Source: Candidatus Dormiibacterota bacterium (GTDB lineage: Bacteria; Chloroflexota; Dormibacteria; Dormibacterales; Dormibacteraceae). From it: a DNA stretch of 64,000 nucleotides. The notes under the pieces are model-generated. The model saw nothing but the letters and a program-made list of their open reading frames with translations. It was not told the DNA's origin and made no database searches. Position 1 is the first letter of the stretch. The number at the start of each line of letters is the position of its first letter. Below, piece after piece: positions 1,503 to 39,900 of the stretch. Both the position numbers and the translations under genes were made by a program. The DNA lies in NCBI GenBank assembly GCA_024280995.1, contig JAMXLM010000013.1:1-64000 (forward strand), written 5' to 3'.

Positions 1503-1694
1503 GTGTCGCGCCACCGAGGTCAGCAGCGGATTCGCGAAAATCGACGGCCGGAGCCAAGGAGAGGGTGGCGCAACGAGGAGCGCAGCCGTAGCTGCGTGAC
1601 GAGTGAGCGCCAGGCCCCTCGACGCCGGCTTCAGCGCCAAAGGCGCCCAGCCGCCTAGGTCGCGAAGGTGCAAGGACCCTCGGGGTCGGAACAC
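1503..1694 (-). repeat. R1a: 192-bp structured intergenic repeat after the ligase gene
   Basis: Reading the minus strand, the element begins on the last base of the ligase stop codon with gtgttccgaccccgag and ends with ctcggtggcgcgacac, an imperfect terminal inverted repeat (12 of 16 positions pair). It aligns along its whole length with R1b (39709-39900, also 192 bp). Internal hairpins are GCGCC-TTT-GGCGC and CGCAGC-TACG-GCTGCG (1581-1596). I see no convincing ORF or target-site duplication. Confidence 0.75.
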
Positions 1695-3349
1695 TAGGTC
1701 TCCGCGACCTCCGACAGCGCGACCTCGGACTTCTCGCCGAAGTAACGGTCGTAGAGCTCGGCGACGCGCGCGAGCGTGTCGATCTCCTCCACCGGCTTGT
1801 CGTCGCGGATGCGCACGATGCGAGGGAATCGCAGCGCGTAGCCGCTCATATGCCGGCCCGAATGCTGGATGGAGTCGAAGGCGACCTCGAGCACGACCTC
1901 GGGACGAACCATGCGCCGGAATCCCTGGTCTTCGATGGTCATCTCGAGAAAACGCTTCGTGAACTCGGCGATCTCGGCATCGGTCAGACCGGTGTAAGCC
2001 TTCCCGACGTTGACGAGCTTTCCCGACCGCGTGTCCTTGACCGCGAACGTGTAATCGGACAGCACACCCCGCCTCTTGCCGTGGCCCCACTCGACCGCGG
2101 TGACGACCACGTCGAGCGTCGCCAGCGGCCGCTTCAGCTTCAACCACGCGAGGCCGCGGCGCCCGGGCGTGTACGGGCTCAACGGGTCCTTCACCATCAG
2201 GCCTTCGTTGCCTCGTTCGCGCGTCTCTTTGAACACGCGGTCCAAGTGCTCCGGTCCGGTCGCCTCCTCGAGGCGGGCGAGCAGGAAGGGATGCTCCAGG
2301 CCCAGTCCCTCGAGCAGCTTGCGGCGCTCTGTCAGAGGCTCGTCCAGCAGCGTGCGCCCGTCGAGCCACAGCAGGTCGAAGATGACGAGCACGACGGGCA
2401 CGTCTCGACGCAGCTCGTCGTCGACCTTCTTGCGGCCGAGCCGGTGCTGCAGCTCGAAGAACCGCAACACGCGACCGTCGCGGTGCGCGAGCACCTCGCC
2501 GTCGAAGAGCACGTCGTGGCCCATCGTCTTGGCGCCTTCGACCAGCTCGGGAAAGGCGCCGGTGGTCTCCTTCAGGTCGCGCGAGAAAAGCTCGACGCGC
2601 TCCCCCTCGCGGTGCATCTGGCACCGAACGCCGTCGTACTTCTCCTCGGTCCACACGCTCTCGGCGCCCATTCGGGTGAAGGCTTCCTCGGGCGCCTCGA
2701 CTGGGCTCGCGAGCATGAAGCGGACCGGCTGGAAGAGCGTGATCTTGCTCGCCTCGAACTCGCCGCGTTTGCAGCGCACCGCTGTCTCGCCGATGTCCCC
2801 GGTTACGAGGTGCACGCGCTTGACCTGCGTGATCGGCACGTCGAACGCCTCGGCGATGGCGGCTTCCACCAGGCCTTCGCTGAGGCCGATGCGCATCTCG
2901 CCCGAGATGATCTTGATAAAGAAGCGAGTGGACGCGGGATCCATGCGGCGGACCATGGCTTCGAGAGGCGCCGCCTTCGCGTTGCCTCGCGCCGAGCGAA
3001 TCGCTTCCAGCGTCGCCTCGACGTCCGCGAGCTTCACCGGTGCAGGTTGGGTGGCGCCGTCGACGGCCTCGCCGGCCCAGTCGCCCAGGTCCGCATGCTT
3101 CCGGAAGAGCGCGCCCAGGTCCTCCTCGTCGCGCGAAGAGATCGACGAGATGACCTTGCTCAACGTCTGCCAGCCGAGCCCAAGCGTGCGTCGCTGTGAC
3201 GGTGGAAACGCTCGGCCGCTCATGTACACCGCGGCACGGCGAAGGTCCGCTTCGTCGAGCGAGCGGAAGTACGCGCCAAGGATGCGGGTCTTTTCGAGGG
3301 TGGCCGGGGTGGCGCCAACCGCGGCACCGGCATTCGCGAATTCGATCAA
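1694..3349 (-). CDS. lig: ATP-dependent DNA ligase
   Basis: Seals nicks in duplex DNA through a covalent ligase-AMP intermediate. The 551 residues show an N-terminal DNA-binding domain (about 1-200), then the nucleotidyltransferase core with motif I EEKYDGVRCQ (adenylated Lys237), FDGE (motif III), EGLMVKD (motif IV), WLKLKR (motif V) and a C-terminal OB-fold. Length and motif spacing fit the archaeal-type LigB/LigI group that also occurs in Actinomycetota. It is divergent from the 3376 gene, 26 bp away. The related beta-CASP nuclease (4663-5628) is on the same strand but separated by three opposite-strand genes. Likely a repair ligase in addition to an NAD-dependent LigA elsewhere (inference). 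Confidence 0.93.
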   Translation of the reverse strand: MIEFANAGAAVGATPATLEKTRILGAYFRSLDEADLRRAAVYMSGRAFPPSQRRTLGLGWQTLSKVISSISSRDEEDLGALFRKHADLGDWAGEAVDGATQPAPVKLADVEATLEAIRSARGNAKAAPLEAMVRRMDPASTRFFIKIISGEMRIGLSEGLVEAAIAEAFDVPITQVKRVHLVTGDIGETAVRCKRGEFEASKITLFQPVRFMLASPVEAPEEAFTRMGAESVWTEEKYDGVRCQMHREGERVELFSRDLKETTGAFPELVEGAKTMGHDVLFDGEVLAHRDGRVLRFFELQHRLGRKKVDDELRRDVPVVLVIFDLLWLDGRTLLDEPLTERRKLLEGLGLEHPFLLARLEEATGPEHLDRVFKETRERGNEGLMVKDPLSPYTPGRRGLAWLKLKRPLATLDVVVTAVEWGHGKRRGVLSDYTFAVKDTRSGKLVNVGKAYTGLTDAEIAEFTKRFLEMTIEDQGFRRMVRPEVVLEVAFDSIQHSGRHMSGYALRFPRIVRIRDDKPVEEIDTLARVAELYDRYFGEKSEVALSEVAET

Positions 3350-3375
3350 TGGAAGGTGACCTATCGTAGTTCGCG

Positions 3376-3588
3376 ATGCGCAGGTGCCCTTATCTCGAGG
3401 AGCTGGTCAAGGAACGCACCGGTCCGCTGCGCGTGTACCGGTTCGATTGCCACGTCGACCACCGCTCCAAGCGCAAGTACTCTTTCCGCGACAGCCCGCC
3501 GATCTGCGTACGTAATTTCGAGGATTGCGAGCTGTATCAGGTTGAAAAACGCCGCGAAGACGGCACAATAACGCGCTACACGGACTAA
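3376..3588 (+). CDS. Small Cys-containing conserved-looking protein
   Basis: 70 residues starting MRRCPYLEELVKERTG. It contains four cysteines (CPYL, DCHVDH, ICVRNF, DCELYQ) and many charged residues, with no signal peptide or membrane segment. A metal or Fe-S role is possible but not shown. Divergent from the ligase gene and followed 26 bp later by the zinc-ribbon gene, so the two may be co-transcribed. I do not recognise the family. Confidence 0.6.
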   Translation: MRRCPYLEELVKERTGPLRVYRFDCHVDHRSKRKYSFRDSPPICVRNFEDCELYQVEKRREDGTITRYTD

Positions 3589-3614
3589 CAACCGCCCTGG
3601 TACCCGCCATACCA

Positions 3615-3971
3615 ATGAATTGCACAGTCTGTTCTGCTCCGGCTTTGCCCATCGATGACGCGTGCGTCTTCTGCCACGCGCCTCTTGTCGAGCGTGACCA
3701 GCCGGACGAGCTGCTCGACTACCTCGTGGAGCGAATCCCGATCGCGCACGCCAAGCGCGGCCATCTGAACCGCGGGCCGATCACCGAGCTCCAGATCGAC
3801 ATCGACGGCAGAAGCTTCCGCGCGCGGGTCAAGAACGAGATCCTCGAGCTCGCGCCGGCGGTTGAGCTGTCGGCGTGGGTGGACCTGCTGCTGACGAAGC
3901 TCAGCGACGCCGCGGCGGGCGACCACGACCTGCGCCGGGCGGTGCTTCGCTCAGGCTGGGCTCTCCGCTAA
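3615..3971 (+). CDS. Zinc-ribbon protein, function unknown
   Basis: 118 residues. The N-terminus carries two CxxC knuckles (MNCTVCSA and ACVFCHA, residues 3-20), a typical zinc ribbon; the remainder is a compact alpha/beta region with no recognised family signature. Co-directional with the 70-residue gene upstream and with the membrane protein downstream (4011). Confidence 0.65.
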   Translation: MNCTVCSAPALPIDDACVFCHAPLVERDQPDELLDYLVERIPIAHAKRGHLNRGPITELQIDIDGRSFRARVKNEILELAPAVELSAWVDLLLTKLSDAAAGDHDLRRAVLRSGWALR

Positions 3972-4010
3972 GCGGCCCGACCCGCCACGGGGGCGTAGAG
4001 TCAGGCCGGC

Positions 4011-4712
4011 ATGGGCGCTGTTCAGATGCGGTCCGGTGTCCGCTTCTGGGTCGCGTGGGTCGCTGTCGCGGCGATCGGCGCCGCGGCTGCCGCGCTGATC
4101 AGCGTCTACGTCTTTAACTCAGCCCCGCCACGGGTCACGGGGACCTTTGTGCTCGCGCTGCCCGTCGTCGCGCTGCAGTACCTGGTCTTGAAGCTTGCCG
4201 GCGGCGTGCCCGCAAACGGCGCGGGTTGGTGGGCGGCCTTGAGCTTGATCGCCGCCGTCGCAACGGCGGAGATCGACTCCGTCTGGGTGGTCACGATCGC
4301 TCCGGCCCATTTCCCTAGCGTGACCAATCTCGTGCCGTCCCTATCCAGCCCAAGCTTCACGCTTGGCGCGCTTCGCATCATCGACCCGCTGGTCCTCGGG
4401 ATCGCCCAGGGAATCGCCCTCGCCAGAATCTTCGGTAAGACGCGCGTCGCCATCGTCTGGACAGTCGCGAGCGTGATCGCCAGCATCATCGCTCAGCAGT
4501 TTCTCGTCAGCGTGGTCATCCAGCTTCCCATCCCAGGGATTCCATTCGTGCTTCCGATCCTGATCATCAATGTCGCGTTCGCGCTGGTCTTCTCGGCGCT
4601 CACCGGCGCGTTGCTTGTGGCGATGTTCAGGAATCGGCCGGTGTGGCTTTTCGGATTGCCGGCTACAGGGCGAGAGCCAGCTGTTCGTTCTTCTCAAGCG
4701 CCCACGCCTTGA
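4011..4712 (+). CDS. Multi-pass membrane protein, unknown
   Basis: 233 residues with about six hydrophobic segments (near residues 10-30, 42-62, 75-100, 120-140, 145-170 and 180-210) and a short polar tail. Family not recognised. Its 3' end overlaps the convergent nuclease gene (ending at 4663) by 50 bp, so the two transcripts are complementary at their ends. Confidence 0.6.
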   Translation: MGAVQMRSGVRFWVAWVAVAAIGAAAAALISVYVFNSAPPRVTGTFVLALPVVALQYLVLKLAGGVPANGAGWWAALSLIAAVATAEIDSVWVVTIAPAHFPSVTNLVPSLSSPSFTLGALRIIDPLVLGIAQGIALARIFGKTRVAIVWTVASVIASIIAQQFLVSVVIQLPIPGIPFVLPILIINVAFALVFSALTGALLVAMFRNRPVWLFGLPATGREPAVRSSQAPTP

Positions 4713-5628
4713 CGCCCTTGCGTCGCAGCGAGCGTGCGAAGTCCTCGGTGAAGCCGTGGACGGTGTAGACCTGCTCCGCCCCTGAGCGCTCGACCACCTC
4801 GACCAGCTCATCGAAGTCGCAGTGGTCGGAGAGGTCGAAGGTCGCGTCGGCGCCGAACAGGCGCGCGAAATCCGGATCCTTGGCCCAGCCTGAGATCAAA
4901 GCAGTGCGGTACCGGTCCAGGCGGCGGATGTCGTCCTTGCCGGCCGGCGGTGAGATCACGACTCTGTCCCGGACCGGCTCAACGTTGAGCTCGATCCAGT
5001 TAGGCAGCGACCGGCCCGCCATCGCGTACTGCCGCGCGCACGGAACGCATCTCTTTTCGAGGGCAAACGAAAAACCGAACCGCGAGAGCTGCAGCATCAC
5101 CTCCTCGGTCTTGCCGAGGGCATGGCACAGCAGAACCGGCGTGACCCGACTGTCGAGGGCACGCCGGCACCACCGCGCGATCGTCTCCAGCGTCTCGTCC
5201 GGATCGCCAAAACGAAAGTGCGGGCGCCCATAGGTGGTCTCGAGGATCAGGACGTCCGCCCGCGGCACGAACGTTTCGATGCGGCCAGGCTGCCGGAGCT
5301 TGATGTCGCCCGTGTAGAGCACCGACCAGCCGTCGTCGTCGAAATGCAGCTGCGCGGAGCCCAGCATGTGGCCCGCCGAGTGCAGCGTGACGGTGCCTGC
5401 GCCGCGCCGCAATCGCTCTCCGTAGCCCAGCATGCGCCAGGCCCGTGGTCGCCGCTCCTCGGGGATGAGCGCCAGGGTCTGCGGCGTCAGCAGCGCCTCC
5501 TTGTGCCGGCGTGCGTGGTCGGTGTGAGCGTGAGAGATGAAGGCGAAGCTGCGCACCACGAGCGGATCGAGCCACAGGCTGTGGCCCGGCAGCGCAACGC
5601 CGTGGTCCCAGACGACCTCCCCTCTCAC
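4663..5628 (-). CDS. Ligase-associated MBL/beta-CASP exonuclease-like protein
   Basis: 321 residues from GTG 5628. Metallo-beta-lactamase motif SHAHTDH (metal ligands), then HSAGHMLGSAQL, YTGDIK and LETTYGRP, and the beta-CASP region with HALGKTEE and a late His (VHGF). These are the hallmarks of the putative mRNA 3'-end processing factor/DNA exonuclease family that usually neighbours ATP-dependent DNA ligases. It probably acts on DNA ends in a minor repair pathway. The start codon overlaps the stop of the NAD(P)H-hydrate epimerase gene (GTGA), suggesting translational coupling. Confidence 0.85.
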   Translation of the reverse strand: MRGEVVWDHGVALPGHSLWLDPLVVRSFAFISHAHTDHARRHKEALLTPQTLALIPEERRPRAWRMLGYGERLRRGAGTVTLHSAGHMLGSAQLHFDDDGWSVLYTGDIKLRQPGRIETFVPRADVLILETTYGRPHFRFGDPDETLETIARWCRRALDSRVTPVLLCHALGKTEEVMLQLSRFGFSFALEKRCVPCARQYAMAGRSLPNWIELNVEPVRDRVVISPPAGKDDIRRLDRYRTALISGWAKDPDFARLFGADATFDLSDHCDFDELVEVVERSGAEQVYTVHGFTEDFARSLRRKGVKAWALEKNEQLALAL

Positions 5629-6287
5629 AGTCGGATGAGTGTGCTTTCGATCAGGTGTGGAGGCACTGTGACGCCGACCGCGGCATAAGCCTCGCGCGGA
5701 ATGCCGATGTCTGCGATGTACACGTCGCCTGGAAGCTTCATCAGGCCTGGCTTGGGGAGGCCGAGCGCGATCGTTGTGGTCGCGTCCACAATCGGAGAGT
5801 AGGCGACGCCGCTCTCGGCGTCGAGCCCCGATGGAACGTCGACCGAGACGACCTCCATCCTGGTCACATTGATGCTCCGAATCCACTCCGCGAACGTGCC
5901 CTCTGGCGGCCTGGACAGCCCGGTGCCGAAGATCGCGTCGACGATTGTGCGTGCTCCGGTGAGCCGAAGCTTGGTGGACGGTTCGACACCCTCCTTGCGC
6001 AGAGCATCGAGCTCCATGGCGGCGGGACCTCGGAGCCGTGCCGGATCGACGCAGCACACGTTCACCAGCCCTCCCCAGCGGTGCAGGTGTCGGGCGGCGG
6101 CGAGCCCGTCACCGGCGTTGTTGCCAACGCCACAGACGACAGTCGCCGAATGGCGTACGAAGGTGGCGATCCGCCAGCCTGCTGCCTCCATCAGCCATTC
6201 GGTCGGAATGCCGAACCGCTCGGCGCAGACCCTGTCGACCTCCTTGGCCTGGGAACTGCTAAGTGTCGGCGGGACGCTGGACCACAA
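5625..6287 (-). CDS. nnrE: NAD(P)H-hydrate epimerase (YjeF_N domain)
   Basis: Epimerises R-NAD(P)HX to the S form for repair by the hydrate dehydratase. 220 residues with the signature VVCGVGNNAGDGLAAARHL (about residues 50-68), DAIFGTGL and SVDVPSGLDAESG. Only the N-terminal YjeF domain is present; the ADP-dependent dehydratase domain often fused to it is absent here. The TTG start lies inside the end of the regulator gene (29-bp overlap) and the stop overlaps the nuclease start, so this is the middle gene of a three-gene operon. Confidence 0.88.
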   Translation of the reverse strand: MWSSVPPTLSSSQAKEVDRVCAERFGIPTEWLMEAAGWRIATFVRHSATVVCGVGNNAGDGLAAARHLHRWGGLVNVCCVDPARLRGPAAMELDALRKEGVEPSTKLRLTGARTIVDAIFGTGLSRPPEGTFAEWIRSINVTRMEVVSVDVPSGLDAESGVAYSPIVDATTTIALGLPKPGLMKLPGDVYIADIGIPREAYAAVGVTVPPHLIESTLIRL

Positions 6288-6888
6288 ATGAGCAGTAGGG
6301 GTCGTGGCGATGGATGGAGTCCGACTGCGAAACGGCTGCGCCCGTCAGTCGGGAAATGAGCTGTGGGGTGATGGTGCAGACCTGCGGGAACTTTAAAGCC
6401 GTGTTGCGGAAGGGGCAGTTGTGGATAGTGACGCGCACGCCCTCGGCGCTTTCCGACTGCTCGACCAGCGTGCCCGCGCGCCCGATCCACGAGACCAGAC
6501 GCCGCATCTTCTCGTCGAACTCCAGGCCTTCGATGTCGCGCTCGATGGCATCTGCGTGCCTCGCCGCGACCCGCGCGAACACCTCGTCCAGCGCCCCCGG
6601 GCCGCCCATCTCCTGGACCTCCTGCAGGACCATCGTGGCGAGCTGCCCGTAGCGTTTTGGAAAGACGGCGTCGGCCCGCTCGGTCAGGCCGAAGCGCAGC
6701 GAGGGGCGTCCACGGCGCGCACGCTCGGGCTGGCTCACGACGAGGCCTTCGCGCTCGAGGTTGGTGAGGTGCTGGCGGATCGCGTTCGCCGTGACGCCGA
6801 GGTCACCGGCGATCGTTTCCGCGCTGGATCGGCCCCTGCGCCGAAGCAGCTCGAGGATCTCCATGCGAGTCGAACGGCCGGCAATCAT
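6259..6888 (-). CDS. SufR/DeoR-like HTH regulator with Cys motif
   Basis: 209 residues. A winged-helix DNA-binding domain occupies about 5-70 (RMEILELLRRRGRSSAETIA...VTANAIRQHLTNLEREGLV). The C-terminal domain has Cys residues in HNCPFRNTALKFPQVC and HDPYCSF, the pattern by which SufR-type repressors bind a [4Fe-4S] cluster. It heads an operon with nnrE and the beta-CASP nuclease. Two inverted repeats lie upstream (6903-6918 and 6933-6964), the second directly before the -35 box of the divergent 7017 gene, so it may regulate itself and that gene (inference). Confidence 0.75.
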   Translation of the reverse strand: MIAGRSTRMEILELLRRRGRSSAETIAGDLGVTANAIRQHLTNLEREGLVVSQPERARRGRPSLRFGLTERADAVFPKRYGQLATMVLQEVQEMGGPGALDEVFARVAARHADAIERDIEGLEFDEKMRRLVSWIGRAGTLVEQSESAEGVRVTIHNCPFRNTALKFPQVCTITPQLISRLTGAAVSQSDSIHRHDPYCSFVVQRPADT

Positions 6889-6902
6889 CAGGTGTTCATC
6901 CG

Positions 6903-6918
6903 GTCGCTTTGAAGCGAC
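6903..6918. promoter_or_regulatory. Perfect 16-bp inverted repeat upstream of the Fe-S regulator
   Basis: GTCGCTT-TG-AAGCGAC, a perfect 7-bp dyad with a 2-bp spacer, 15 bp upstream of the regulator start. Position and symmetry fit an autoregulatory operator. Not matched to a known consensus. Confidence 0.5.
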
Positions 6919-6932
6919 TCTAGCACAGGCCT

Positions 6933-6964
6933 GAACGACTAAAGCGATTTATTACAGGTCGTTC
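6933..6964. promoter_or_regulatory. Inverted repeat abutting the -35 box of the 7017 gene
   Basis: GAACGAC and GTCGTTC are perfect 7-bp arms spaced 18 bp; the right arm touches the TTGACA -35 box at 6965. A repressor bound here would cover the divergent promoter region. The candidate ligand is the regulator encoded next to it (inference). Confidence 0.4.
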
Positions 6965-6992
6965 TTGACAAAAGACGCTCGCGCCCTAAACT
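6965..6992 (+). promoter_or_regulatory. Sigma-70-like promoter of the 104-residue gene
   Basis: TTGACA (6965-6970), 16-bp spacer, TAAACT (6987-6992). A strong Shine-Dalgarno GGAGGAG sits at 7001-7007, 9 bp before ATG 7017. A consensus -35 is uncommon in this window, which suggests strong expression. Confidence 0.6.
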
Positions 6993-7016
6993 TGGTAACC
7001 GGAGGAGATAGGGAAA

Positions 7017-7331: not shown

Positions 7332-7344
7332 GGCAATGTGACGA

Positions 7345-7377
7345 AGCCGGGCTCTTCGGAGCCCGGCTTTTCTTTTT
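7345..7377 (+). terminator. Intrinsic terminator
   Basis: A 10-bp perfect stem AGCCGGGCTC-TTCG-GAGCCCGGCT with a TTCG tetraloop, followed by TTTCTTTTT. It ends the 7017 gene. Starts for the next gene placed inside this hairpin can be discarded. Confidence 0.92.
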
Positions 7378-7394
7378 CAGCGAGGAGGCCGGCC

Positions 7395-8014: not shown

Positions 8015-8057
8015 CAGCGCGCGATGAGTTTCGCGGCGCCGGGAGGTCTATAGAGAC

Positions 8058-24963: not shown

Positions 24964-26496
24964 CTAGACCGGAAGGACTCCGTGCTTGCGGTCAAGAGGC
25001 GGTGTGGCTTTTGTAGCGTAGGCGGCAAAGCGCGCGATCAACGTGCCGCGCAGGTCCTCCGGCTCGACGACGTCGTCCACGATCAAGTTGGAAGCCAGCT
25101 TGTACAGATCGACGTCCTCGCGGTACTCGTCCTCCAGCTCCTTGCGGCGCGCGGCGCGCTGGTCCTCGGGAAGTTCGGCCAGCTTGTTGAAGAACACGGC
25201 GTTGACGGCGGGCTCGGGGCCCATCACCGCGATCTGAGCCGACGGAAGCGCAACGACCGCGTCGGAGTCGAAGGCAGGCCCCGCCATCGCGTAGAGGCCC
25301 GCACCGTAAGCCTTCCGAACGATCACCGAGATCTTCGGCACCGTCGCTTCGGAGACCGCGCTGATCATCTTCGCGCCGTGACGGATGATGCCGCGGCGCT
25401 CGACGTCGGTGCCGATCATGAAGCCGGGCACGTCGGCCAGGAACAGCAGCGGGATCTCGAATGCGTCGCAGAGCCAGATGAAGCGCGCGGCCTTGTCGGC
25501 TGAGTCGTTGAACAGGACGCCGCCCTTTTGCATGGGCTGGTTCGCGACGATGCCCACCGCTCGGCCATCCAGCCTCGCGAAGCCGGTGAGGAGCTCTTTG
25601 GCAAACAGCTTTTTGATCTCGAGCCAGCTGCCCTCGTCGATGATCGCGTCGATCACCTTGCGCATGTCGTAGCCGCGATTGGGCTCATCGGGGATCAGAT
25701 CGCCCAGAGCTTTCTGGCCGGCCCGCGGCGGCAGAGGATCGCAAGGTGCAACTCCGTGGCCGGCGGAGTCCGGCATGTAGCGGAAGTAGGCCTTGGCGAA
25801 CTCGATCGCCTCTTCGTCCCTGGAGACCAGCGCGTCGCCGAGGCCGCTCTCGGTGTTGTGCATTCGCGCCCCGCCCAGCTCTTCGAGGCTGACCTTCTCG
25901 CCGACCACGACCTCGACCATCCTCGGCGAGCCGAGGTACATCGACGCGTTGCCTTCGACCATCACCACCACGTCGCAAAATGCAGGGATGTAGGCGCCGC
26001 CGGCCGCTGACGGTCCGAAGAGCAGGCAGATCTGCGGCACGACGCCCGAGAGCTGCACCTCGTTGAAGAAGATTCGCCCGGCGTGACGCCGGCCGGGAAA
26101 CATCTCGATCTGGTCGGTGATCCGAGCGCCCGCCGAATCGACCAGGTAGAAGAGAGGCCGCCGCAGGCGGGCCGCGGTCTCCTGGATCCGGATGATCTTC
26201 TCCACGGTGCGAGCGCCCCAGCTGCCTGCCTTGACGGTCGGGTCGTTGGCCATGACCGCGACCTGGCGCCCGCCGATCTTGCCCAGCCCCGTGACTACGC
26301 CGTCCGCGGGCAGCTCGTCGGCGAGGGCATTCGCGAACAGGCCGTCCTCGACGAACGAGTCCTTGTCGAGCAGGAGGTCGAGGCGCTCGCGAGCGGTGAG
26401 CTTGTGCTGCTCCCGCAGCTTGGGAAGGTATCGCGTTCCGCCCTTGCGCGCCTTCTCGCGCAGCTCGCGCGACCGCTCGCGCGACCGCTGGCTCAC
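24964..26496 (-). CDS. Acyl-CoA carboxylase, carboxyltransferase (beta) subunit
   Basis: Transfers the carboxyl group from biotin to acetyl- or propionyl-CoA. 510 residues from GTG 26496 (GAGGGG 4 bp upstream; the longer upstream frame lies in repeat R2a). Two crotonase-like halves: N-terminal LTARERLDLLLDKDSFVEDG, FGPSAAGGAYIPAFCD (first oxyanion loop) and C-terminal FLADVPGFMIGTDVERRGIIRHGAKM with YGAGLYAMAGPA. This is the propionyl/methylmalonyl-CoA carboxyltransferase type. No biotin carboxylase gene in the window. Confidence 0.93.
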   Translation of the reverse strand: MSQRSRERSRELREKARKGGTRYLPKLREQHKLTARERLDLLLDKDSFVEDGLFANALADELPADGVVTGLGKIGGRQVAVMANDPTVKAGSWGARTVEKIIRIQETAARLRRPLFYLVDSAGARITDQIEMFPGRRHAGRIFFNEVQLSGVVPQICLLFGPSAAGGAYIPAFCDVVVMVEGNASMYLGSPRMVEVVVGEKVSLEELGGARMHNTESGLGDALVSRDEEAIEFAKAYFRYMPDSAGHGVAPCDPLPPRAGQKALGDLIPDEPNRGYDMRKVIDAIIDEGSWLEIKKLFAKELLTGFARLDGRAVGIVANQPMQKGGVLFNDSADKAARFIWLCDAFEIPLLFLADVPGFMIGTDVERRGIIRHGAKMISAVSEATVPKISVIVRKAYGAGLYAMAGPAFDSDAVVALPSAQIAVMGPEPAVNAVFFNKLAELPEDQRAARRKELEDEYREDVDLYKLASNLIVDDVVEPEDLRGTLIARFAAYATKATPPLDRKHGVLPV

Positions 26497-26518
26497 TTCC
26501 CCTCGGGGACGGCGACCG

Positions 26519-26672
26519 GCACCGTCGACGGATCTTTGGCCCCCATGCGCCCGCATCCGGGCGTCAACTCCTGCGCTTCTCGCTCACGCATCAACGGATG
26601 CGCTCGCTGCGATGCTCGTCGTTTCCTTCGGCTGCGGCCACCTGGATGGCCAAATCTCTCGTCGCCGGCACC
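26519..26672 (-). repeat. R2a: ~154-bp structured repeat after the enoyl-CoA hydratase gene
   Basis: Starts 2 bp after the hydratase stop and runs in the same orientation to 22 bp before the carboxyltransferase start. Aligns over its whole length with R2b (35458-35610). Ends form an imperfect inverted repeat (CCGGCGACGAGAGATTTGGC against CCGTCGACGGATCTTTGGC). Central hairpin CGCATC-AACG-GATGCG at 26587-26602 corresponds to that in R1. Confidence 0.7.
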
Positions 26673-26674
26673 AG

Positions 26675-27466
26675 TCACCGCCCCTTGAATTCCGGTTCGC
26701 GCTTCTCGAAGAAGGCGGTGATGCCTTCTCGCGAGTCGTCGGTCTGCGAGACGAGCAGGAACTGACCATGGAGGTAGTGCAGCGCCGCGCGAAAGTCCAT
26801 GTCCTCCTGCCGGTAGAAGGAGTCGCGGCCGAGCCGCAGCGCGATCGGCGACTTCTTCGCGAGCGTGTCGGCCACCTCTTTCACCGTGTGGTCGAGCTGC
26901 TCGTGCGCGACCACTCGGTTGATGACGCCGACGGACTGCAGCTGTGTCGCGGTCCAGCGGTTGCCCAGCATCTCCATCTCGAGCAGCACCTTGCGCGGGA
27001 TGTTCCGGGTCAGGATCGCCTGGATCATCATCGGCCAGATCCCGACGTTGATCTCGGGGAGCCCAAACGTCGCCGTGTCGACCGCGATGAGCATGTCGCA
27101 TGCGCACGCGAGGCCGAACCCGCCCGCGAGGGCGTGACCATTGATCCGGCCGACGATCGGCTTGCCGAGCTCGGCCATGAGGATGAACAGGTCGACGAAG
27201 AGATCGCGGCTGCGGAAGCGCTCGACCGGGCTCATGCCGCCATCGAAGCTCGTGAGGTCCGCGCCCGCGCAGAAGACACGTCCGGCGCCGGTGAGGACGA
27301 CGACCCGAACGTCGGGTTCGGCGCTGCACCAGCGCAGGGCGGAGGCCAGGTCGCGCAGCATCGTCGCGGAGAGCGGGTTGCGCTGGTCCGGCCGGTTCAG
27401 GGTGACGGTGGCGACGTGACCGTCGACGCCGACAAGCACCTGCTCCAACGCCGGCCTGTCGGTCAT
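26675..27466 (-). CDS. Enoyl-CoA hydratase/isomerase family protein
   Basis: 263 residues from ATG 27466. Crotonase signature: VTLNRPDQRNPLS, FCAGADL (first oxyanion residue), INGHALAGGFGLACACDMLI (second). The usual catalytic Glu region reads FGLPEINVGIWP. Probably hydrates enoyl-CoA esters in fatty or branched acid breakdown, fitting the neighbouring acyl-CoA carboxylase. An upstream extension would run into repeat R1c. Confidence 0.88.
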   Translation of the reverse strand: MTDRPALEQVLVGVDGHVATVTLNRPDQRNPLSATMLRDLASALRWCSAEPDVRVVVLTGAGRVFCAGADLTSFDGGMSPVERFRSRDLFVDLFILMAELGKPIVGRINGHALAGGFGLACACDMLIAVDTATFGLPEINVGIWPMMIQAILTRNIPRKVLLEMEMLGNRWTATQLQSVGVINRVVAHEQLDHTVKEVADTLAKKSPIALRLGRDSFYRQEDMDFRAALHYLHGQFLLVSQTDDSREGITAFFEKREPEFKGR

Positions 27467-27472
27467 CGGCGG

Positions 27473-27543
27473 GTCGCGACCCCGTGGGCCGACGCAGATT
27501 CGCCTAGGTCGCGAAGATGCAAGGACCATCGGGGGCGTGACAC
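27473..27543 (-). repeat. R1c: 71-bp internally deleted copy of R1
   Basis: Begins 5 bp after the MntP-like stop with gtgtcacgcccccgatgg, keeps the conserved block of ~45 bp (ccttgcatcttcgcgaccta) and then jumps to the R1 3' end (tgcgtcgg...ggtcgcgac). The middle of R1 with both hairpins is missing. It ends 6 bp before the hydratase ATG. Confidence 0.65.
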
Positions 27544-32829: not shown

Positions 32830-32852
32830 TCCACCTACTCTAGCCAGCGCGC

Positions 32853-33035: not shown

Positions 33036-35462
33036 TTAATACGTTCGCTTGATGACGTCGCGCTCCATGAGCACGACGGCCTTGGAAACGGGATCCAGCA
33101 ATGGAGACTTCGCCTGGCGGAGGGCGAACTCCAGCTGGCGCAGCAGCGAATAAAGCGCCTTCATCGCCTTTATCGCGTCGCCGATGTCGACGTTAGGCGG
33201 CAGAGGGATCTTGTCCAGCGCCTCGCCCGACGACCAGCGATAAGCGAAGTCGATGTAGTCGTGCGAAGGCTGGCGCAGGTTTGGCTCGTCCAGCTCCTTC
33301 TCCATGTCGGCGAACCGGAAGTAGAGGGAGCGGACCAGCCGCGCCGTCTGTGCGATCGCCGGCGTGGGGTAGCGCCGCGGCGAGCGCTGCTCCCTGCGAT
33401 CCCCTCGCCGTTCCCGGTCCTCTGCGGCCAGCATCACCATCACCGCGCACAGCTCTTCCGGCGTCAGGCCTTCGAACCACCCGAGGGACACGGCTTCAGC
33501 GACAAGGATCGTGTTCTCTCCGTAAACCCGCGCCGCGAACAGGCCCTTGTCGGTGGGCTTGTCGTTCTTGAGGAAGCCGGCCTCGTCGAGGATCGCTTCG
33601 AGCCGGCGGAGCTTGCGCGGGTACTCGTCCATCTGTCCGGTCGCATCGCGCTGCCCGCGATCGAGCTCCTGCTGCAGGGCGCGGATCTCTCCATATCGCT
33701 GCAGCAGCTCGCCGAAGCGCGGCGAGCGGACGACCTTGAGCTTGCGCTGCCGCTCGAGCAGTCCCTTGGCCTCGACTTCCAGGCGCTGGGCGAGCCGGCC
33801 CGAATGACCCTGGCCGCGCTGCCTGCCACCAAGACGATGGCGGCGCTCTTGCCCCGCCTCCCGGCGCAGCCGGCGGAGCTCGATCCGGATCGACCGCCTC
33901 CGCTCCTCGATCTTGAAGTACTGCCCGACGTCGTCGATGGAGACGCCGTCGCCGTCCCACAGGCGCTTGCGGTCCGCCAGCTGCTCGCGCACGTTGACGA
34001 GCCTTTCGGCGTGCGCGGATGCCGCCAGGCGCTTCTGGAACTGGCCGAAAGATCGCTGCATCAACGCCTCGGCTTCGGCGGGCGTGTAGACGCGAAGCAG
34101 GTTGAGGGCCATGTTGTAGCTCGGCAGGAACTTCGACTCGACGACGAGCGTCGGCCCCATCGCGACCTCGTAAATCGTCCCGACCTCGACGTCGGCCTCT
34201 TTGAGGATCACGCCGTGCCCGATGACGTCGATGCCGCGCCGGCCCGCGCGGCCCATCAGCTGCGTGAGCTCGCCCGTGGTCAGCGTTGAGAAGTTGACGC
34301 CGTCGAATTTCGTAAATGAGGAGACAACGACTCCGCGCGCGGGCATGTTGATGCCGAGCGACAGGGTCTCGGTGGCGAACACGACCTTGATCAGGCCGCG
34401 CTGAAAGAGCTCCTCGACCATCTCCTTGTGGTAGGGCAGCAGCCCGGCATGGTGCTCCGCCATGCCTCGCCGCAAGAGACGCGCGTCGACCATGCGTCGG
34501 AACAGCGCCTCCTCATCGACGTCCTTGAGGCCTTGAAGGCGCTCCGCCGCGACGCGGTCGATCGCCTCCTTCTCCGCGGCGGTCGTGAGGTCGAGCTCGT
34601 GGTACGCGCAGCGCTGCAGCGCCTCACGACATCCGCGCCGGGAGAAGATGAAGTAGATCGCCGGCAGCATCTCCAGCCCACGCAGCTGCTCGATGACGTG
34701 CAGCAGGTCGTTCGACGGCAGCCCGCGATAGCCGCCGATGCGGTACGAAGCCTCCTCCTCCTGCGCGGCCTTGCTCCAAGTCCGTTGGTCGATGCCGCCA
34801 TCCGCCTTGAACAGCGGGAAGAAGCGGTTGTTGATGGCCAGCCACATCTTCAGCTCGACCGGCCGCACGTCGTGGAAGACCGTCTCCATGCCGCCGCGGT
34901 TCTCGGCCATCCACTCGGCGATCTCGCGGTAGTTGCCGATGGTCGCGGACAGGCCGACGAGCTTGATCGTCCGCGGCGCCTGGATCACGATCTCCTCCCA
35001 CACCGAACCGCGCGGGAAGTCGTCGATGTAGTGCGCCTCGTCGAGCACGACGTACCGGACGAGGTCGAGGCGCGCGGGATCCTCGTAGATGAGGTTGCGG
35101 AGGATCTCGGTCGTCATCACCACGACAGGCGCGTCGTCGTTGATGGTGTTCTCGCCCGTGACCAGGCCGACCATCGACTCGCCGTACTCGCGAACGAAGT
35201 CGTGGAACTTCTGGTTGCTGAGCGCCTTCAGCGGCGTGGTGTAGAGGACCTTGGCGCCCTCGCGGAGCGCGCGGAAGATCGCGTACTCGGCGACGATCGT
35301 CTTGCCGCTGGAGGTCGGCGCGCTGACCAGCACTCCGCCGGGGCCCCGGTCGAGCTTCTCGATGGCCTCCTTCTGAAAGCCGTCGAGCTCGAACGGCAGA
35401 GTGGCCGCGAACTCGTCGACGAGGCTTCCCACCACATCCCGAAGCTCGGCCGGGGGAGCCAT
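33036..35462 (-). CDS. Ski2/HelY-like DEAD/DEAH RNA helicase
   Basis: 808 residues from ATG 35462, preceded by GAGG 8 bp upstream. Walker A APTSSGKT (48-55), motif II DEAH (141-144), SAT (LVGLSATIGN), motif VI QLMGRAGRRG, then a long arch region with Arg-rich segment and a C-terminal DSHCT-type domain (WFEGLTPEELCAVMVMLAAE). This is the Mtr4/Ski2 architecture found in actinobacterial HelY. Probably ATP-dependent RNA unwinding in RNA decay or processing. The start codon overlaps repeat R2b, and residues read further upstream would come from that repeat. Confidence 0.92.
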   Translation of the reverse strand: MAPPAELRDVVGSLVDEFAATLPFELDGFQKEAIEKLDRGPGGVLVSAPTSSGKTIVAEYAIFRALREGAKVLYTTPLKALSNQKFHDFVREYGESMVGLVTGENTINDDAPVVVMTTEILRNLIYEDPARLDLVRYVVLDEAHYIDDFPRGSVWEEIVIQAPRTIKLVGLSATIGNYREIAEWMAENRGGMETVFHDVRPVELKMWLAINNRFFPLFKADGGIDQRTWSKAAQEEEASYRIGGYRGLPSNDLLHVIEQLRGLEMLPAIYFIFSRRGCREALQRCAYHELDLTTAAEKEAIDRVAAERLQGLKDVDEEALFRRMVDARLLRRGMAEHHAGLLPYHKEMVEELFQRGLIKVVFATETLSLGINMPARGVVVSSFTKFDGVNFSTLTTGELTQLMGRAGRRGIDVIGHGVILKEADVEVGTIYEVAMGPTLVVESKFLPSYNMALNLLRVYTPAEAEALMQRSFGQFQKRLAASAHAERLVNVREQLADRKRLWDGDGVSIDDVGQYFKIEERRRSIRIELRRLRREAGQERRHRLGGRQRGQGHSGRLAQRLEVEAKGLLERQRKLKVVRSPRFGELLQRYGEIRALQQELDRGQRDATGQMDEYPRKLRRLEAILDEAGFLKNDKPTDKGLFAARVYGENTILVAEAVSLGWFEGLTPEELCAVMVMLAAEDRERRGDRREQRSPRRYPTPAIAQTARLVRSLYFRFADMEKELDEPNLRQPSHDYIDFAYRWSSGEALDKIPLPPNVDIGDAIKAMKALYSLLRQLEFALRQAKSPLLDPVSKAVVLMERDVIKRTY

Positions 35463-35610
35463 CGACGGATCCTCGGCGCCCATGCGGCCCATCTTCGGGC
35501 TCATCTCCTGCGCTGCTCGCTCGGGCATACGCGATGCGCTCGCTCCGCTGCTCGTCGATTCGCCCGAATCTGGACCACCTGGATCACCGAATCTCTCGCC
35601 GATGGCCCCC
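35458..35610 (-). repeat. R2b: ~153-bp structured repeat between DUF503 and helicase genes
   Basis: Begins 9 bp after the DUF503 stop and reaches over the helicase ATG (35462-35460). Same orientation and extent as R2a. Terminal inverted repeat GCCATCGGCGAGAGATTCGG versus GCCATCGACGGATCCTCGG. The central hairpin is weaker (GCAT-ACGCG-ATGC, 35525-35537). It appears to provide the helicase ribosome-binding site and start. Confidence 0.7.
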
Positions 35611-35619
35611 GTCCGAGCT

Positions 35620-35922
35620 TCACCAAGGCATGAGCTCCGTCGAGACGTCGGCGACCTGCGCGCCGTCGGCGTGGGCCTCGACGTAGGAAAGCGCCGCGGC
35701 CAGGACGCGGTCGGCCTGCCGGCTGTCGCCGCTCACCGTGACGATCGCGATCTCGGCAAGCTGCCAGCGGTCCAGCTCGCCGACCTCGGCCGCCGCGACC
35801 TTCAACTCCTGGCGCAGGCGGCGCAGCAAACCGCTGATCATCCGGCGCTTGGACTTGAGCGATCCCGACTCAGGAAGGTGCAGGACGACGCGGGCGATGC
35901 CTATCGCAACTTTGGCGGCCAA
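35620..35922 (-). CDS. DUF503 family protein
   Basis: About 100 residues from TTG 35922, chosen because GGAG lies 5 bp upstream; a GTG 10 codons earlier is possible. The sequence ARVVLHLPESGSLKSKRRMI, RLRQELKVAAAEVGELDRWQ matches DUF503, a small ferredoxin-like fold found next to rbfA/nusA in many bacteria, function unknown. Here it heads an operon with the helicase, linking it again to RNA metabolism (inference). Confidence 0.82.
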   Translation of the reverse strand: MAAKVAIGIARVVLHLPESGSLKSKRRMISGLLRRLRQELKVAAAEVGELDRWQLAEIAIVTVSGDSRQADRVLAAALSYVEAHADGAQVADVSTELMPW

Positions 35923-36034
35923 ACCAACTCCATTTTTGACCCCTTGACACAACTCTTCATAATCATCGTGGGGTTAGACGCGCCCGGATGGCCCATGTCG
36001 GGACGCAGGGCGGCCCCAATGGGGGAGTCGACAG

Positions 36035-37753
36035 ATGAGCGAAGACGAGGATCCCAAAGGTTTCGAGCAGTTTGAGCGGTTCCTGGAGGAATGGTCCCGC
36101 CGCGACTTCCTGAAGAAAACAGGCGGTGCGGCGGCTTACATGGCCTTCCTCGCCGGTGGGCTCGAGTGGCTCGAGGCGTGTGGGGGAGGCAGCAACAGCG
36201 GAGGCGGAACCGCCAAGAAGGGCGGGCACGTCGTCGAAGGGAACTTCTCCGACATCCGCACCCTGAACTCGATGCTGAGCAGCGACACCGCGTCGAACCA
36301 GGTCATCGGCCTGATGTTCGACGGGCTCACGAACCAGAAGAAGGACGGAACCGTCATCCCCGCCCTGGCCGAATCCTGGAAGACCTCCGCGGACGGCATG
36401 ACGTACACCTTCAAGCTCCGCTCAGGCCTCAAGTGGTCGGACGGCCAGCCCATCACGGCGGACGACGTCAAGTTCACCTACTCGCTCGCCCAGGACGACG
36501 CCTACAAGGCGTTCGCGTCGCCGCGGCGCGGTGACCTTTCGAAATACATCAAGTCGATCGACACCCCCGACCCGCAGACGGTGGTCATGAACATGACGCA
36601 GGTCTTCGCACCGTTCCTGGCCAGCCACGGCCAGTACGGGATCCTGCCGAAGCACGTGCTCGGCACCATGGACGCCACCGCACTGAACACGGCCGACTTC
36701 AACAGCGCCCCCAGCGTCACCAATGGCGCCTTCAAGTTCGTCCGGTGGGACAAGGGCGCCCAGGTCACCATGGCTCGCAACGACAACTACTGGGCCGGCG
36801 CCGCGTACCTCGACCAGTGGATCTACAAGGTCCTGCCCGACTCGGTCGCGGTGACAAACCAGCTGAAGACCGGTGAGATCGACATCGGGCCTGTCGACCC
36901 GGGGCAGTACGACAACATCAAGACCACGGACTCGGTCACGCTGACGGAGTTCCCGGTCCCGTCGTTCACCTTCTACGCCTACCAGCTCGATCCGAGCAAG
37001 CCGGCCGGCCCCCTGTTTCAGGACCAGGCTGTGCGACAGGCGCTGCTCTACGCGCTCGACCGCCAGTCGATGGTCAACGCCATCTTCTTCAACCACGGCG
37101 TGGTCGCGGACTCGGTCATGCCGCCGACTTCGTGGGCGCACATCAAGCCCCAGACGCAGTACCCGTTCGACAAGAACAAGGCCGGGTCGCTGCTCGACGG
37201 CGCCGGGTGGGCCATGGGCTCGGACGGCATTCGCGCCAAGAACGGCATGAAGCTCAAGTTCACGATGATCACGAACGCTGGCAACAAGCAGCGCGAGAGC
37301 TGTCTGACGTACATGCAGCAGGCCTGGAAGGCGATCGGAGTCGACGCGACCCCTTCGCTGATCCAGTTCCCTCAGCTGGTGAGCCAGATCGTCAGCATCC
37401 GGACCTTCGACATGTTCCTCGTCGGCTTCAACTGGTCGGTCGACCCGGACGAGGCGCCGCTCTTCCACTCGCGCAACGCCGCACCGGGCGGATTCAACGG
37501 CGCGCATTTCAAGAACGACCAGGTGGACTCGCTGCTCGACCAGGCTCTTGGCACCCTGGACCAGAACAAGCGCAAGCAGCTCTACGCGCAGTTCCAGGAG
37601 ATCATGGCCGAGCAGGTACCGTCGCCCATCCTCGTCTTCAACACGGGCATCTGGGGCGTGAACAAGCGCGTCCAGAACACCGACTTCGGCACGTTCAGCC
37701 AGTACCAGTTCCGGCCCTGGAACCACACCGTGTGGGTCACGGACGGCAAGTAA
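36035..37753 (+). CDS. Peptide/oligopeptide ABC transporter substrate-binding lipoprotein
   Basis: 572 residues. Twin-arginine motif SRRDFLKK (about 21-28) followed by a hydrophobic stretch and lipobox LEAC (about 50), so it is probably a Tat-exported lipoprotein. SBP_bac_5 fold: LNSMLSSDTASNQVIGLMFD, LAESWKTSADGMTYTFKLRS, LKWSDGQPITADDVKFTY. Captures peptides or similar solutes for the permeases that follow at 37810 and 38781. Confidence 0.92.
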   Translation: MSEDEDPKGFEQFERFLEEWSRRDFLKKTGGAAAYMAFLAGGLEWLEACGGGSNSGGGTAKKGGHVVEGNFSDIRTLNSMLSSDTASNQVIGLMFDGLTNQKKDGTVIPALAESWKTSADGMTYTFKLRSGLKWSDGQPITADDVKFTYSLAQDDAYKAFASPRRGDLSKYIKSIDTPDPQTVVMNMTQVFAPFLASHGQYGILPKHVLGTMDATALNTADFNSAPSVTNGAFKFVRWDKGAQVTMARNDNYWAGAAYLDQWIYKVLPDSVAVTNQLKTGEIDIGPVDPGQYDNIKTTDSVTLTEFPVPSFTFYAYQLDPSKPAGPLFQDQAVRQALLYALDRQSMVNAIFFNHGVVADSVMPPTSWAHIKPQTQYPFDKNKAGSLLDGAGWAMGSDGIRAKNGMKLKFTMITNAGNKQRESCLTYMQQAWKAIGVDATPSLIQFPQLVSQIVSIRTFDMFLVGFNWSVDPDEAPLFHSRNAAPGGFNGAHFKNDQVDSLLDQALGTLDQNKRKQLYAQFQEIMAEQVPSPILVFNTGIWGVNKRVQNTDFGTFSQYQFRPWNHTVWVTDGK

Positions 37754-37809
37754 GGTCGATCGATTTGGAGGGTAGTTCGAGAACCGCCGGGATCACTACG
37801 TAAGACGAA

Positions 37810-38784
37810 GTGATACTCGCCAAGTATCTGGCCCGGCGGTTCTTCGCCTCCGTCATCGTCGTGTTGGGCGTGACCCTGATCACGCTCCTTTTGATGGACC
37901 GCACGCGCGGCACGTACGTGCCCGGCATCGATCTCAACCCAAGCCTCCGGCCGGAGGACATCGCCCGCCTGCGAGCCAACCTCGGCCTGGACCGGCCGTT
38001 CTACATCTGGTACCTGACCTGGATCTGGGGTGTGCTCCATGGCGACTTCGGGCGCTCGATGATCGACGGGAGCACGGTCATGAGCCACATCCTCGACCGC
38101 CTGCCGAACACCATCGAGCTGACCGCGACCGCGATTCTCGTCGGCATTCTCATCTCGATCCCTGTCGGGGTGGTCAGCGCCCTGCGCAGGGGGAGCAAGA
38201 CCGACCACACGCTCACGGTCGTCTCGGTCGCCGGCTTCGCGGTACCGCAGTTCTGGCTGGGATTGATGCTCATCCTCATCTTCTCCGTCACCCTGGAACA
38301 GCACGGCCTGCCCTGGCTGCCTTCGAGCGGCGCATACAGCGCGTACAACGGCGGCGACCTCCTCGACCGTCTTCTGCACCTGATCATGCCCGCCACGGTG
38401 CTGTCCTTCTTCTATGTCTCGACCTGGTCGCGGTTCATTCGCTCCAGCATGCTCGAGGTGCTGTCGCAGGACTACATCCGGACCGCGCGCGCCAAAGGCA
38501 TGAGCGAGCGCCGGGTCGTGTACTTGCACGGCTTGCGCAACGCGCTCATCCCGCTCATCACGCTGATCGGCCTCGAGCTGCCGGGCCTGGTGAGCGGCGG
38601 TCTCGTGGTCGAGGTGGTGTTCGGATGGCCGGGGATCGGCAAGCTCGCGTTCGAGCGGGCGCTTCAGTACGACTACACCACGGTGATGGGGGTCACCTTC
38701 TTCGCGACCATGCTGGTCATCGCCGGCAACCTGCTCGCAGACCTGCTCTACGGCGTGCTCGATCCAAGGATCCGCTACGGGTGA
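37810..38784 (+). CDS. OppB/DppB-type ABC permease
   Basis: 324 residues from GTG. Six membrane segments and the EAA loop ...DYIRTARAKGMSERRVVYLH (about 218-237), which docks on the ATPases. N-terminal ARRFFASVIVVLGVTLITLLL is typical of DppB. Its TGA overlaps the next GTG start (GTGA). Confidence 0.92.
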   Translation: MILAKYLARRFFASVIVVLGVTLITLLLMDRTRGTYVPGIDLNPSLRPEDIARLRANLGLDRPFYIWYLTWIWGVLHGDFGRSMIDGSTVMSHILDRLPNTIELTATAILVGILISIPVGVVSALRRGSKTDHTLTVVSVAGFAVPQFWLGLMLILIFSVTLEQHGLPWLPSSGAYSAYNGGDLLDRLLHLIMPATVLSFFYVSTWSRFIRSSMLEVLSQDYIRTARAKGMSERRVVYLHGLRNALIPLITLIGLELPGLVSGGLVVEVVFGWPGIGKLAFERALQYDYTTVMGVTFFATMLVIAGNLLADLLYGVLDPRIRYG

Positions 38785-39707
38785 TCGGTCCGAGCCGCGT
38801 CGCCGAGCTGGACATGCCGAGCGCCGGGATCGAGACCGGCGGCTCGCGACCCGCGCAGAGCTACTGGAACGAGTCCTGGGAGCGCCTCCGCGCGAACCGC
38901 ATCGGCGTGGGCGCCGGAGCCCTGATCCTCGTCTTCGCGGCGATTGCGATCATGGCGCCCCTCGTCTCGGCCTTCATCACGCACTACCAGCCGCAGACGA
39001 TCAACCTCGACCAGACCTTCGCGAAGCCCGGCTCTGTGCACTGGCTGGGCAGCGACGAGCTCGGACGAGACACCCTCACGCGGCTTGTCTGGGGCGCGCG
39101 CGTCTCGCTTGGCGTCGCCTTTCTCACGGTGGCCATATCCCTGACGGTCGGCACGTCCGTGGGCATGCTCGCCGGCTATTACGGCGGCTGGATCGATGAC
39201 GTGCTGATGCGACTGGTCGACACCGTGCTGGCGATCCCGGCCATCTTCCTTTTCATCCTCATGTCGATCCTCTTCCGGCCGAACCCGTTCACGCTGGCGG
39301 TGATCGTCGCTTCAGTCGGCTGGGGGGCCGTCGCCAGGCTCGTTCGCGGCGAGGTGCTGTCGGTGAAGCAGCGCGATTTCGTCCTGGCCACCCGCTCGAT
39401 CGGGGCCAGGGATACGCGGTTGATGGCGCGCCACCTGCTCCCCAACGTGCTTCCCGTGCTGATCGTCGCCGCGAGCCTCGGGGTCGGCCAGATCATCCTG
39501 GTCGAAGCGGCGCTCGACTTCCTCGGGCTTGGCATCCAGCCGCCCACGGCGAGCTGGGGCAACATGCTCACCAACGCCGAGAGCTACTTCTTCCGGTCGG
39601 GCTGGCTTGTCGCACTTCCCGGGGTCACGATCTTCACCACCGTCCTCGCGTCGAACATCTTCGGCAATGCAGTCCGCGACGCCTTCGACCCCCGTTTGAA
39701 GTCTTAA
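38781..39707 (+). CDS. OppC/DppC-type ABC permease
   Basis: 308 residues from GTG 38781 (ATG 38815 is an alternative). Five to six membrane helices, periplasmic segment HWLGSDELGRDTLTRLVWGA and EAA loop DFVLATRSIGARDTRLMARH are diagnostic of DppC. Followed not by oppD directly, as is usual, but by the 192-bp repeat R1b. Confidence 0.92.
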   Translation: MIGPSRVAELDMPSAGIETGGSRPAQSYWNESWERLRANRIGVGAGALILVFAAIAIMAPLVSAFITHYQPQTINLDQTFAKPGSVHWLGSDELGRDTLTRLVWGARVSLGVAFLTVAISLTVGTSVGMLAGYYGGWIDDVLMRLVDTVLAIPAIFLFILMSILFRPNPFTLAVIVASVGWGAVARLVRGEVLSVKQRDFVLATRSIGARDTRLMARHLLPNVLPVLIVAASLGVGQIILVEAALDFLGLGIQPPTASWGNMLTNAESYFFRSGWLVALPGVTIFTTVLASNIFGNAVRDAFDPRLKS

Positions 39708-39708
39708 G

Positions 39709-39900
39709 GTGTCGCAGCCCCGAGATTCCTCGCATCCTCGCGGCCTAGTCGGCCGGGCGCCTGCGGCGCTGAAGCCCGCGTCAGGGGGCCCGGCGCTCAC
39801 TCGTCACGCACCAATGGGTGCGCTCCTCGGCGCGCCACCCCTTCCTCGGCTCCGGCCGCCGATGCCACGAGATATGCGTCGGACCTCGGGTCCGCGACAC
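39709..39900 (+). repeat. R1b: 192-bp structured repeat inside the opp operon
   Basis: Starts 1 bp after the oppC stop (TAA 39705-39707) and ends 2 bp before the oppD GTG (39903). Terminal inverted repeat gtgtcgcagccccgag / ctcgggtccgcgacac (13 of 16 positions). Internal hairpins GCGCC-TGC-GGCGC and CGCACC-AATG-GGTGCG (39807-39822). Same length as R1a. No ORF of note and no clear target duplication. Confidence 0.78.

Follow-up and report, generated by a model that had tools for sequence, protein, structure and literature searches.

R1, a dispersed palindromic repeat of Dormibacteraceae and candidate translational relay between neighbouring genes

Introduction

The stretch of DNA analysed here (the window) comprises 64,000 nt, positions 1 to 64,000 of contig JAMXLM010000013.1 (assembly GCA_024280995.1), from a Candidatus Dormiibacterota bacterium of the Dormibacteraceae. 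It holds several copies of a palindromic repeat, R1. One copy is located between two genes that we take to be oppC-like (38781-39707) and oppD (starting at 39903), and another precedes a gene that presumably encodes a hydratase; the names oppD and hydratase are carried over from an earlier, sequence-only reading, and none of the names comes from a family search. That reading regarded R1 as a miniature inverted-repeat transposable element (MITE) with a strict position at gene tails, and considered a role in transcript ends.

This work describes R1 as a family of imperfect palindromes of about 190 bp, found in a single bacterial group at the family level. Judging from the register of short open reading frames (ORFs) that run through the repeat, R1 is probably a spreading element that is retained as a translational relay, coupling the stop codon of the upstream gene to the start codon of the downstream gene.

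Results

R1 copies in the window

The copies and their relay ORFs are listed in Table 1. R1a and R1b align at 80% identity over 184 columns (BLASTN within the window, E 3e-41), so that the homology claimed for these two 192-bp copies is borne out, with significance judged by E-value. The third copy, R1c, had been described as keeping both ends and lacking the middle. Its 5' end is clear, with 43 nt matching the 5' end of R1a at 88% (E about 1e-10), and its 3' end is a short match of 27 nt to R1b at 81%, weak when taken alone (E 0.04). The ends form inverted repeats, as had been proposed: R1a and R1b fold end to end at -98 and -105 kcal/mol, and R1c folds at -34 kcal/mol. The copies start close to the upstream stop codon, with gaps of -1 nt in R1a (where the stop overlaps the repeat as TAGTG), +1 nt in R1b and +5 nt in R1c. 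The further claim that R1 reaches the next co-directional gene holds for R1b (2 nt) and R1c (6 nt) but not for R1a, which ends 64 nt before the next start called by a gene finder trained on the window.

Table 1. R1 copies and relay ORFs in the window
Feature	Description	Coordinates	Strand	Remarks
R1a	full-length, 192 bp	1503..1694	minus	
R1b	full-length, 192 bp	39709..39900	plus	between gene 38781-39707 and gene starting 39903
R1c	internally deleted, 71 bp	27473..27543	minus	
R1d	probable diverged R1-like copy	26497..26674	minus	weak similarity; next junction in the same gene run as R1c
R1b relay ORF	65 codons + stop	39709..39906	plus	GTG 1 nt past upstream TAA; TGA overlaps next start (GTGA)
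R1c relay ORF	26 codons + stop	27463..27543	minus	GTG 5 nt past upstream stop; end overlaps next start (ATGA)
R1d relay ORF	61 codons + stop	26493..26678	minus	GTGA overlap at both ends

The sequence at R1d, on the opposite side of the hydratase gene from R1c, is a probable diverged fourth copy, judged by weak similarity to R1 (BLASTN E 0.03 at 26570-26605; nhmmer E 0.13 at 26572-26642). Related sequence was also seen by eye in another genome (G014, locus L387). R1b, R1c and R1d pass the relay test described below and R1a fails: its GTG overlaps the upstream stop, and since its frame continues into the downstream gene, R1a is not coupled.

Family size and distribution

Querying the own genome (3.02 Mb) with R1b gave 40 places by BLASTN. 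A covariance model of R1 built from 26 copies returned 42 rows, one of them a reverse-strand duplicate, leaving 41 copies; the genome-wide count that the sequence-only reading had proposed as a check thus shows that R1 is not confined to the window. With at least one match at E 1e-4, the family is present in 32 of 61 genomes, own included: 31 of the 37 genomes of the own family and one of the 24 outside it. An exact 24-base R1 core was found in 27 contigs of a named genome collection, which may omit records near the window's own genome. All are titled Chloroflexi or Candidatus Dormiibacterota/Dormibacteraeota metagenome-assembled genomes, and the named records derive from soil Chloroflexi and Dormibacterota. 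In Rfam, the window at gathering cutoffs gave two tRNAs only and nothing at R1, and a search with one R1 copy (L002:1450-1750) at E up to 0.1 gave no match.

The copies used below number 121 in a first set and 40 in a later one; L030:943-1076 (27.8 bits) and the reverse-strand rows were left out. Some sub-variants have an additional apical hairpin (about 25 nt), and others contain different insertions. Core insertions of about 39-41 nt were noted in L026 (1430-1619), L141, L043 and L054. Genome G034, with 39 R1 matches in total, has diverged R1-like copies at L155 (2492-2638 and 13930-14297), two of them adjacent and one with CTAGTGGACTGTAACGGC-type ends. Deletion derivatives besides R1c were found at C45:123117-123184 and C36:74561-74652. 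Of the 18 matches of R1c in its own genome, 16 fall within known R1 copies; the remaining two are R1c and another deleted copy.

Register of the relay ORFs

The relay was tested on tandem-forward copies, which lie forward between genes of the same direction. The strict test requires an ORF that starts at most 9 nt from the upstream stop, stays open through the core and has its own stop at -4 to +6 of the downstream start. Eight frame-shift controls, made by adding one or two bases at either edge of the core, keep everything but the register. The strict relay ORF was found in 24 of 51 tandem-forward copies, as opposed to 0, 1, 2, 0, 9, 0, 8 and 1 in the controls. Because the criterion had been set after seeing these first copies, the 40 further copies were tested with the criterion unchanged, which gave 10/21 (controls: 2, 2, 1, 2, 5, 0, 1, 0). 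In these 24 and 10 copies the ORF ends as in a coupled gene pair, with its stop overlapping or adjoining the next start in register. When each site is counted once, the new sites among the held-out copies give 8/16 (controls: 2, 1, 1, 1, 4, 0, 1, 0) and all sites pooled give 31/65 (controls: 2, 3, 3, 2, 14, 0, 8, 1).

Without the upstream requirement, the first set shows 50/88 forward (controls 20 and 26) and 19/58 reverse (6 and 9), and the held-out set 23/33 forward (9 and 12) and 6/16 reverse (2 and 4). Tandem-forward copies and copies whose 5' neighbour lies on the opposite strand differ in core length modulo 3 (chi-square P 1e-4). As a small baseline, 2 of 17 tandem gaps without R1 are coupled; the two positives are R1d and L109, the latter with a weak R1 match. 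The deletion derivative at C36:74561-74652 scored as a failure in the scripted test. By eye, it nevertheless has an ORF whose GTG overlaps the upstream stop and whose TAG immediately precedes an ATG of the next gene in the same frame.

The best-surviving alternative, although an unlikely one in our judgement, is that R1 is a palindromic repeat or MITE of the ordinary kind whose ORF is due to chance: insertions would survive selection at junctions alone, and a GC-rich element would be short of stop codons. The plus strand is indeed open in two of the three core frames in most copies, whatever their context, ORF-bearing MITEs are described in the available text of two papers (PMC2759123, PMC2229807), and the register is perhaps partly inherited among copies with 152-nt cores. 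The frame-shift controls, however, keep both composition and junction position and mostly lose the relay. Moreover, under survival alone the larger intergenic gaps, where most of the target bases lie, would be allowed as well; 43 of 153 copies nevertheless lie against both a start and a stop.

Several points weigh against a retained relay. About half of the copies fail the strict test (27/51 tandem-forward and 11/21 held-out, with R1a among the failures). The 40 held-out copies are not fully independent: 10 of them occupy sites already represented in the first set, and there are two pairs of held-out copies at a common site; shared ancestry also makes the P values optimistic. Counted per site, 152-nt cores give 13/19 with controls up to 6, and many of these copies may have inherited their register; the other core lengths give 9/29, a small margin over controls of up to 6/29. 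The highest controls (9 and 8 of 51) are those in which total length is kept and the core frame is shifted. The usual frame is open in 40/51 tandem-forward copies vs 34/56, only weakly higher (P 0.06); since the open rate differs so weakly, the relay signal lies in register and not in stop avoidance. Gene starts from our own gene finder could shift toward R1, in data and controls alike. Finally, some copies do have a genuine reverse-strand ORF (aroC, coaBC and, by reading, uvrB), but such an ORF was dropped as a general rule, with 25 of the 58 reverse copies that face a start lacking an open frame.

Placement relative to genes

The midpoint of the R1 core lies outside called genes in all 161 copies (121/121 first copies and 40/40 later ones); gene calls were made with the finder trained on the window, and starts near some copies are possibly misplaced. 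The following counts cover 153 copies, leaving out eight without a gene on one side. The flanking genes have the same direction in 100 cases (72 copies forward and 28 reverse), are divergent in 44 and convergent in nine. R1 lies within 10 nt of a start codon in 79/153, of a stop codon in 86/153, of both in 43/153 and of neither in 31/153. For random intergenic points of the window, the corresponding values are 6.5% for a start, 5.1% for a stop and 0.3% for both. The suspicion that copies are not placed at random relative to stop codons is therefore confirmed. Of the strict gene-tail position, the anchoring at stops is real, and starts are anchored about as often.

That R1 acts at transcript ends, as a terminator or as a 3' hairpin protecting the upstream mRNA, appears very improbable. 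The hairpin is very stable and often lies just past a stop codon, which would suit such a role. Convergent gaps are nevertheless avoided, with 9/153 copies set against 14 convergent pairs among the 61 gene pairs of the window, which argues against this role, and divergent gaps hold 44 of the 153 copies. In addition, the end of many reverse-oriented copies touches a start codon. Start/stop junctions and translation account better for the exact position of R1.

Spread and mobility

Sites of R1 were compared between relatives. At the junction that we take to be atpD-atpC (300 nt inspected per locus), 30 loci comprise R1-type inserts in G000 and G020, three other inserts, one contig end and 24 loci without R1. 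At a pair that presumably encodes the large and small subunits of a mutase-like enzyme, R1 is present in G000 only among 30 loci (60 nt inspected in each of the others); both pairs were named by recognition rather than by a family search. Many same-genus loci of the mutase-like pair have TGATG, TAGTG or ATGA at the junction. In many relatives the genes of both pairs overlap or almost touch, and R1 is placed exactly there. R1 precedes coaBC in 1 of 18 loci (one unreadable), aroC in 2 of 17 and uvrB in 1 of 16, out of 26 loci each. The R1b site has R1 in 1 of 12 loci and lacks it in the 11 others inspected. At the R1c site, of which 13 of 23 hydratase loci were inspected, R1 is present in one, and the 110 nt before the orthologous gene hold none in the 12 others. 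Because these sites, the R1b and R1c sites and five more, lack R1 in nearly all relatives' loci examined, R1 has spread; sites without R1, which the sequence-only reading had proposed to look for as empty sites, do occur in relatives. The exact pre-insertion sequence was not recovered from the loci inspected at sites without R1.

The non-R1 inserts at atpD-atpC lie in G004, G018 and G046 (L181, L185 and L201); since they occupy the same junction, atpD-atpC is a recurrent insertion point. Some copies share one site in different genomes: L102 (G000) and L166 (G016) by their flanks, and L364 (G011) by identical junction strings. L102 and L166 differ in ORF start and by an indel; even so, the GTGA at their ends is in the same register.

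R1 is dispersed, multi-copy and short and has terminal inverted repeats, as expected of a MITE. The proposed MITE-type nature is supported by the multiple copies, the sites without R1 and the internal-deletion derivatives, but neither a target-site duplication (TSD) nor a partner transposase was found, Y1 being the sole transposase family searched, which leaves R1 short of a classical MITE. For TSDs of 2-9 bp, nothing beyond chance was seen in 65 clear-ended copies (best z 2.7 among 448 combinations); full flanks were available for 119 of 121 copies, 54 of which were dropped for unclear ends. TSDs anchored on start codons gave no signal in 63 coupled cases.

That a Y1 transposase moves R1 as a repetitive extragenic palindrome/REP-associated tyrosine transposase (REP/RAYT) or IS200/IS605-type element is largely refuted: the hairpin and the lack of a TSD would suit it, as would the flanks, of which the left is recurrent (by eye, TTAG/CTAG in many copies) and the right variable, but Pfam Y1_Tnp was found in 0 of the 32 carriers at E 0.001 (draft genomes), and its places, 11 in G027 and one below the cutoff in G037, are in genomes without an R1 match.

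Encoded peptides and start signals

Equally remote is the explanation that R1 carries a conserved small protein gene. Many forward ORFs do encode a similar peptide of 64-65 aa in one and the same frame, but other coupled copies use different frames and yield different peptides. In one orthologous pair with the ORF kept (L117 and L150), the differences are spread evenly over the codon positions (6, 5 and 8). The comparisons L166/L364 (where the L364 string hit an unintended place) and L129/L362 were left out of this count, to which pairs differing in length could not contribute. None of five relay peptides matched Pfam (0/5). A constant-frame peptide gene was rejected as well, as element length modulo 3 is even (45/39/37 in 121 copies) and frames differ between coupled copies. 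Because different copies use different frames, the peptide is apparently unimportant; it seems that the link matters.

At aroC, the reverse strand of R1 provides a GTG, an open frame and TGATG. A -10-like TATCAT lies 7 nt from this GTG and, by reading, TATGAT lies 7 nt from the native ATG in relatives. TAGGCT lies 7 nt from the GTG of R1c; in several relatives, by reading, its distance to the native GTG is 6-7 nt. Since this TAGGCT belongs to the final part of the upstream coding sequence, a promoter there is conjectural. Among leading genes in the window, TANNNT occurs at -15 to -4 in 13/46 vs 1.7 in shuffles, and Shine-Dalgarno-like motifs in 7 vs 4.7. A promoter at the R1 end was considered and dropped by eye.

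Pairing of the arms

In 29 copies, both sides have changed in 25 of 43 consensus pairs, and covariation is 0.230 vs 0.081 when shuffled and 0.034-0.066 when slid. The terminal arms pair at -28.0 kcal/mol with their own partner vs -16.1 kcal/mol with a swapped one (n = 161 copies); for the 69 copies whose ends match the consensus poorly, the values are -25.8 for the own arm vs -14.1 kcal/mol for that of another copy. Selection on pairing could be one cause of the matched arms. Matching arms could also arise with no selection involved, through strand-switching repair of imperfect palindromes.

Discussion

How a relay could work

R1 spreads within genomes and ends up exactly at start codons or stop/start junctions, and we favor the explanation that it is retained wherever it can act as a translational relay. 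A ribosome that has finished the upstream gene, or one that begins on a leaderless mRNA, would initiate at the base of the hairpin, where the R1 start codon lies, and translate through R1, thereby opening the hairpin. It would then stop at a codon that overlaps or abuts the next start and re-initiate there. An insert expected to uncouple the downstream gene would in this way leave that gene expressed.

A more specific proposal, which we hold more tentatively, is that R1 is a mobile element that captures start codons. It would insert at the first codon of a gene, place its own start at the native position (a stop/start junction or a leaderless 5' end) and pass ribosomes via the hairpin to the displaced start. 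R1 would then survive in core-gene junctions (atpD-atpC, the oppCD-like pair, uvrB and aroC) as a relay and possible translation gate. If start capture holds, R1 would be selfish DNA whose niche is the hand-over of ribosomes between genes. A relay as such would show how tightly packed operons can be invaded by repeats and still stay intact, and that mobile DNA can be shaped by translational coupling. The many natural insertions at known genes make coupling through the hairpin directly measurable.

Comparison with known repeats

The kinds nearest to R1 are ERIC, YPAL and the Rickettsia palindromic elements (RPE), from which R1 was set apart by published descriptions, here as given in the available portions of the cited papers. 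ERIC (IRU/RU-1) and YPAL (RU-2) of enterobacteria are dispersed intergenic palindromes of 100-200 bp, some with contiguous ORFs (PMC2759123, PMC2229807). They resemble R1 as short, dispersed palindromes that in part bear ORFs. Their ORFs are fused in frame to genes, however, whereas that of R1 joins an upstream stop to a downstream start; ERIC further has TSDs and TA ends and YPAL has TSDs of variable size, in contrast to R1, for which no TSD was found. RPE share with R1 a palindromic repeat that stays translatable after insertion (PMC10969869, PMC2229807), but RPE located inside genes are read as part of the host protein, whereas R1 lies between genes and forms a short ORF of its own. Like R1, the bacterial MITEs such as Correia/NEMIS and RUP are short and mainly intergenic with inverted ends (PMC2229807); they are listed with TSDs and TA ends, unlike R1, which has no TSD and, in the Y1 search, no partner transposase.

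Termination-reinitiation at ATGA and TGATG overlaps has been studied in other prokaryotes, where one close gene pair was not coupled (PMC6728339, available portion). The ORFs of R1 use the same overlaps, with the difference that the coupled intermediate ORF is a dispersed repeat. Among the matches listed, no description of coupling ORFs on such repeats was found in the open-access literature.

Other repeats at the same loci

Upstream of coaBC, five relatives (L241-L244 and L246) carry 36-bp units that form 11-codon mini-ORFs (MTSKLDQDGTY-like, by eye). Each unit ends in TGA directly before the next ATG, the last one before coaBC, and two are visible in most of these loci. By eye, these units are a repeat unrelated to R1 with the same coupling habit. 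Many loci upstream of uvrB (L285-L300) contain a CGAACGTTTGTGCG box, which we take to resemble an SOS/LexA site, and TTAGAATTAG; several also carry TAGTCCGGACT palindromes or other repeats upstream of uvrB.

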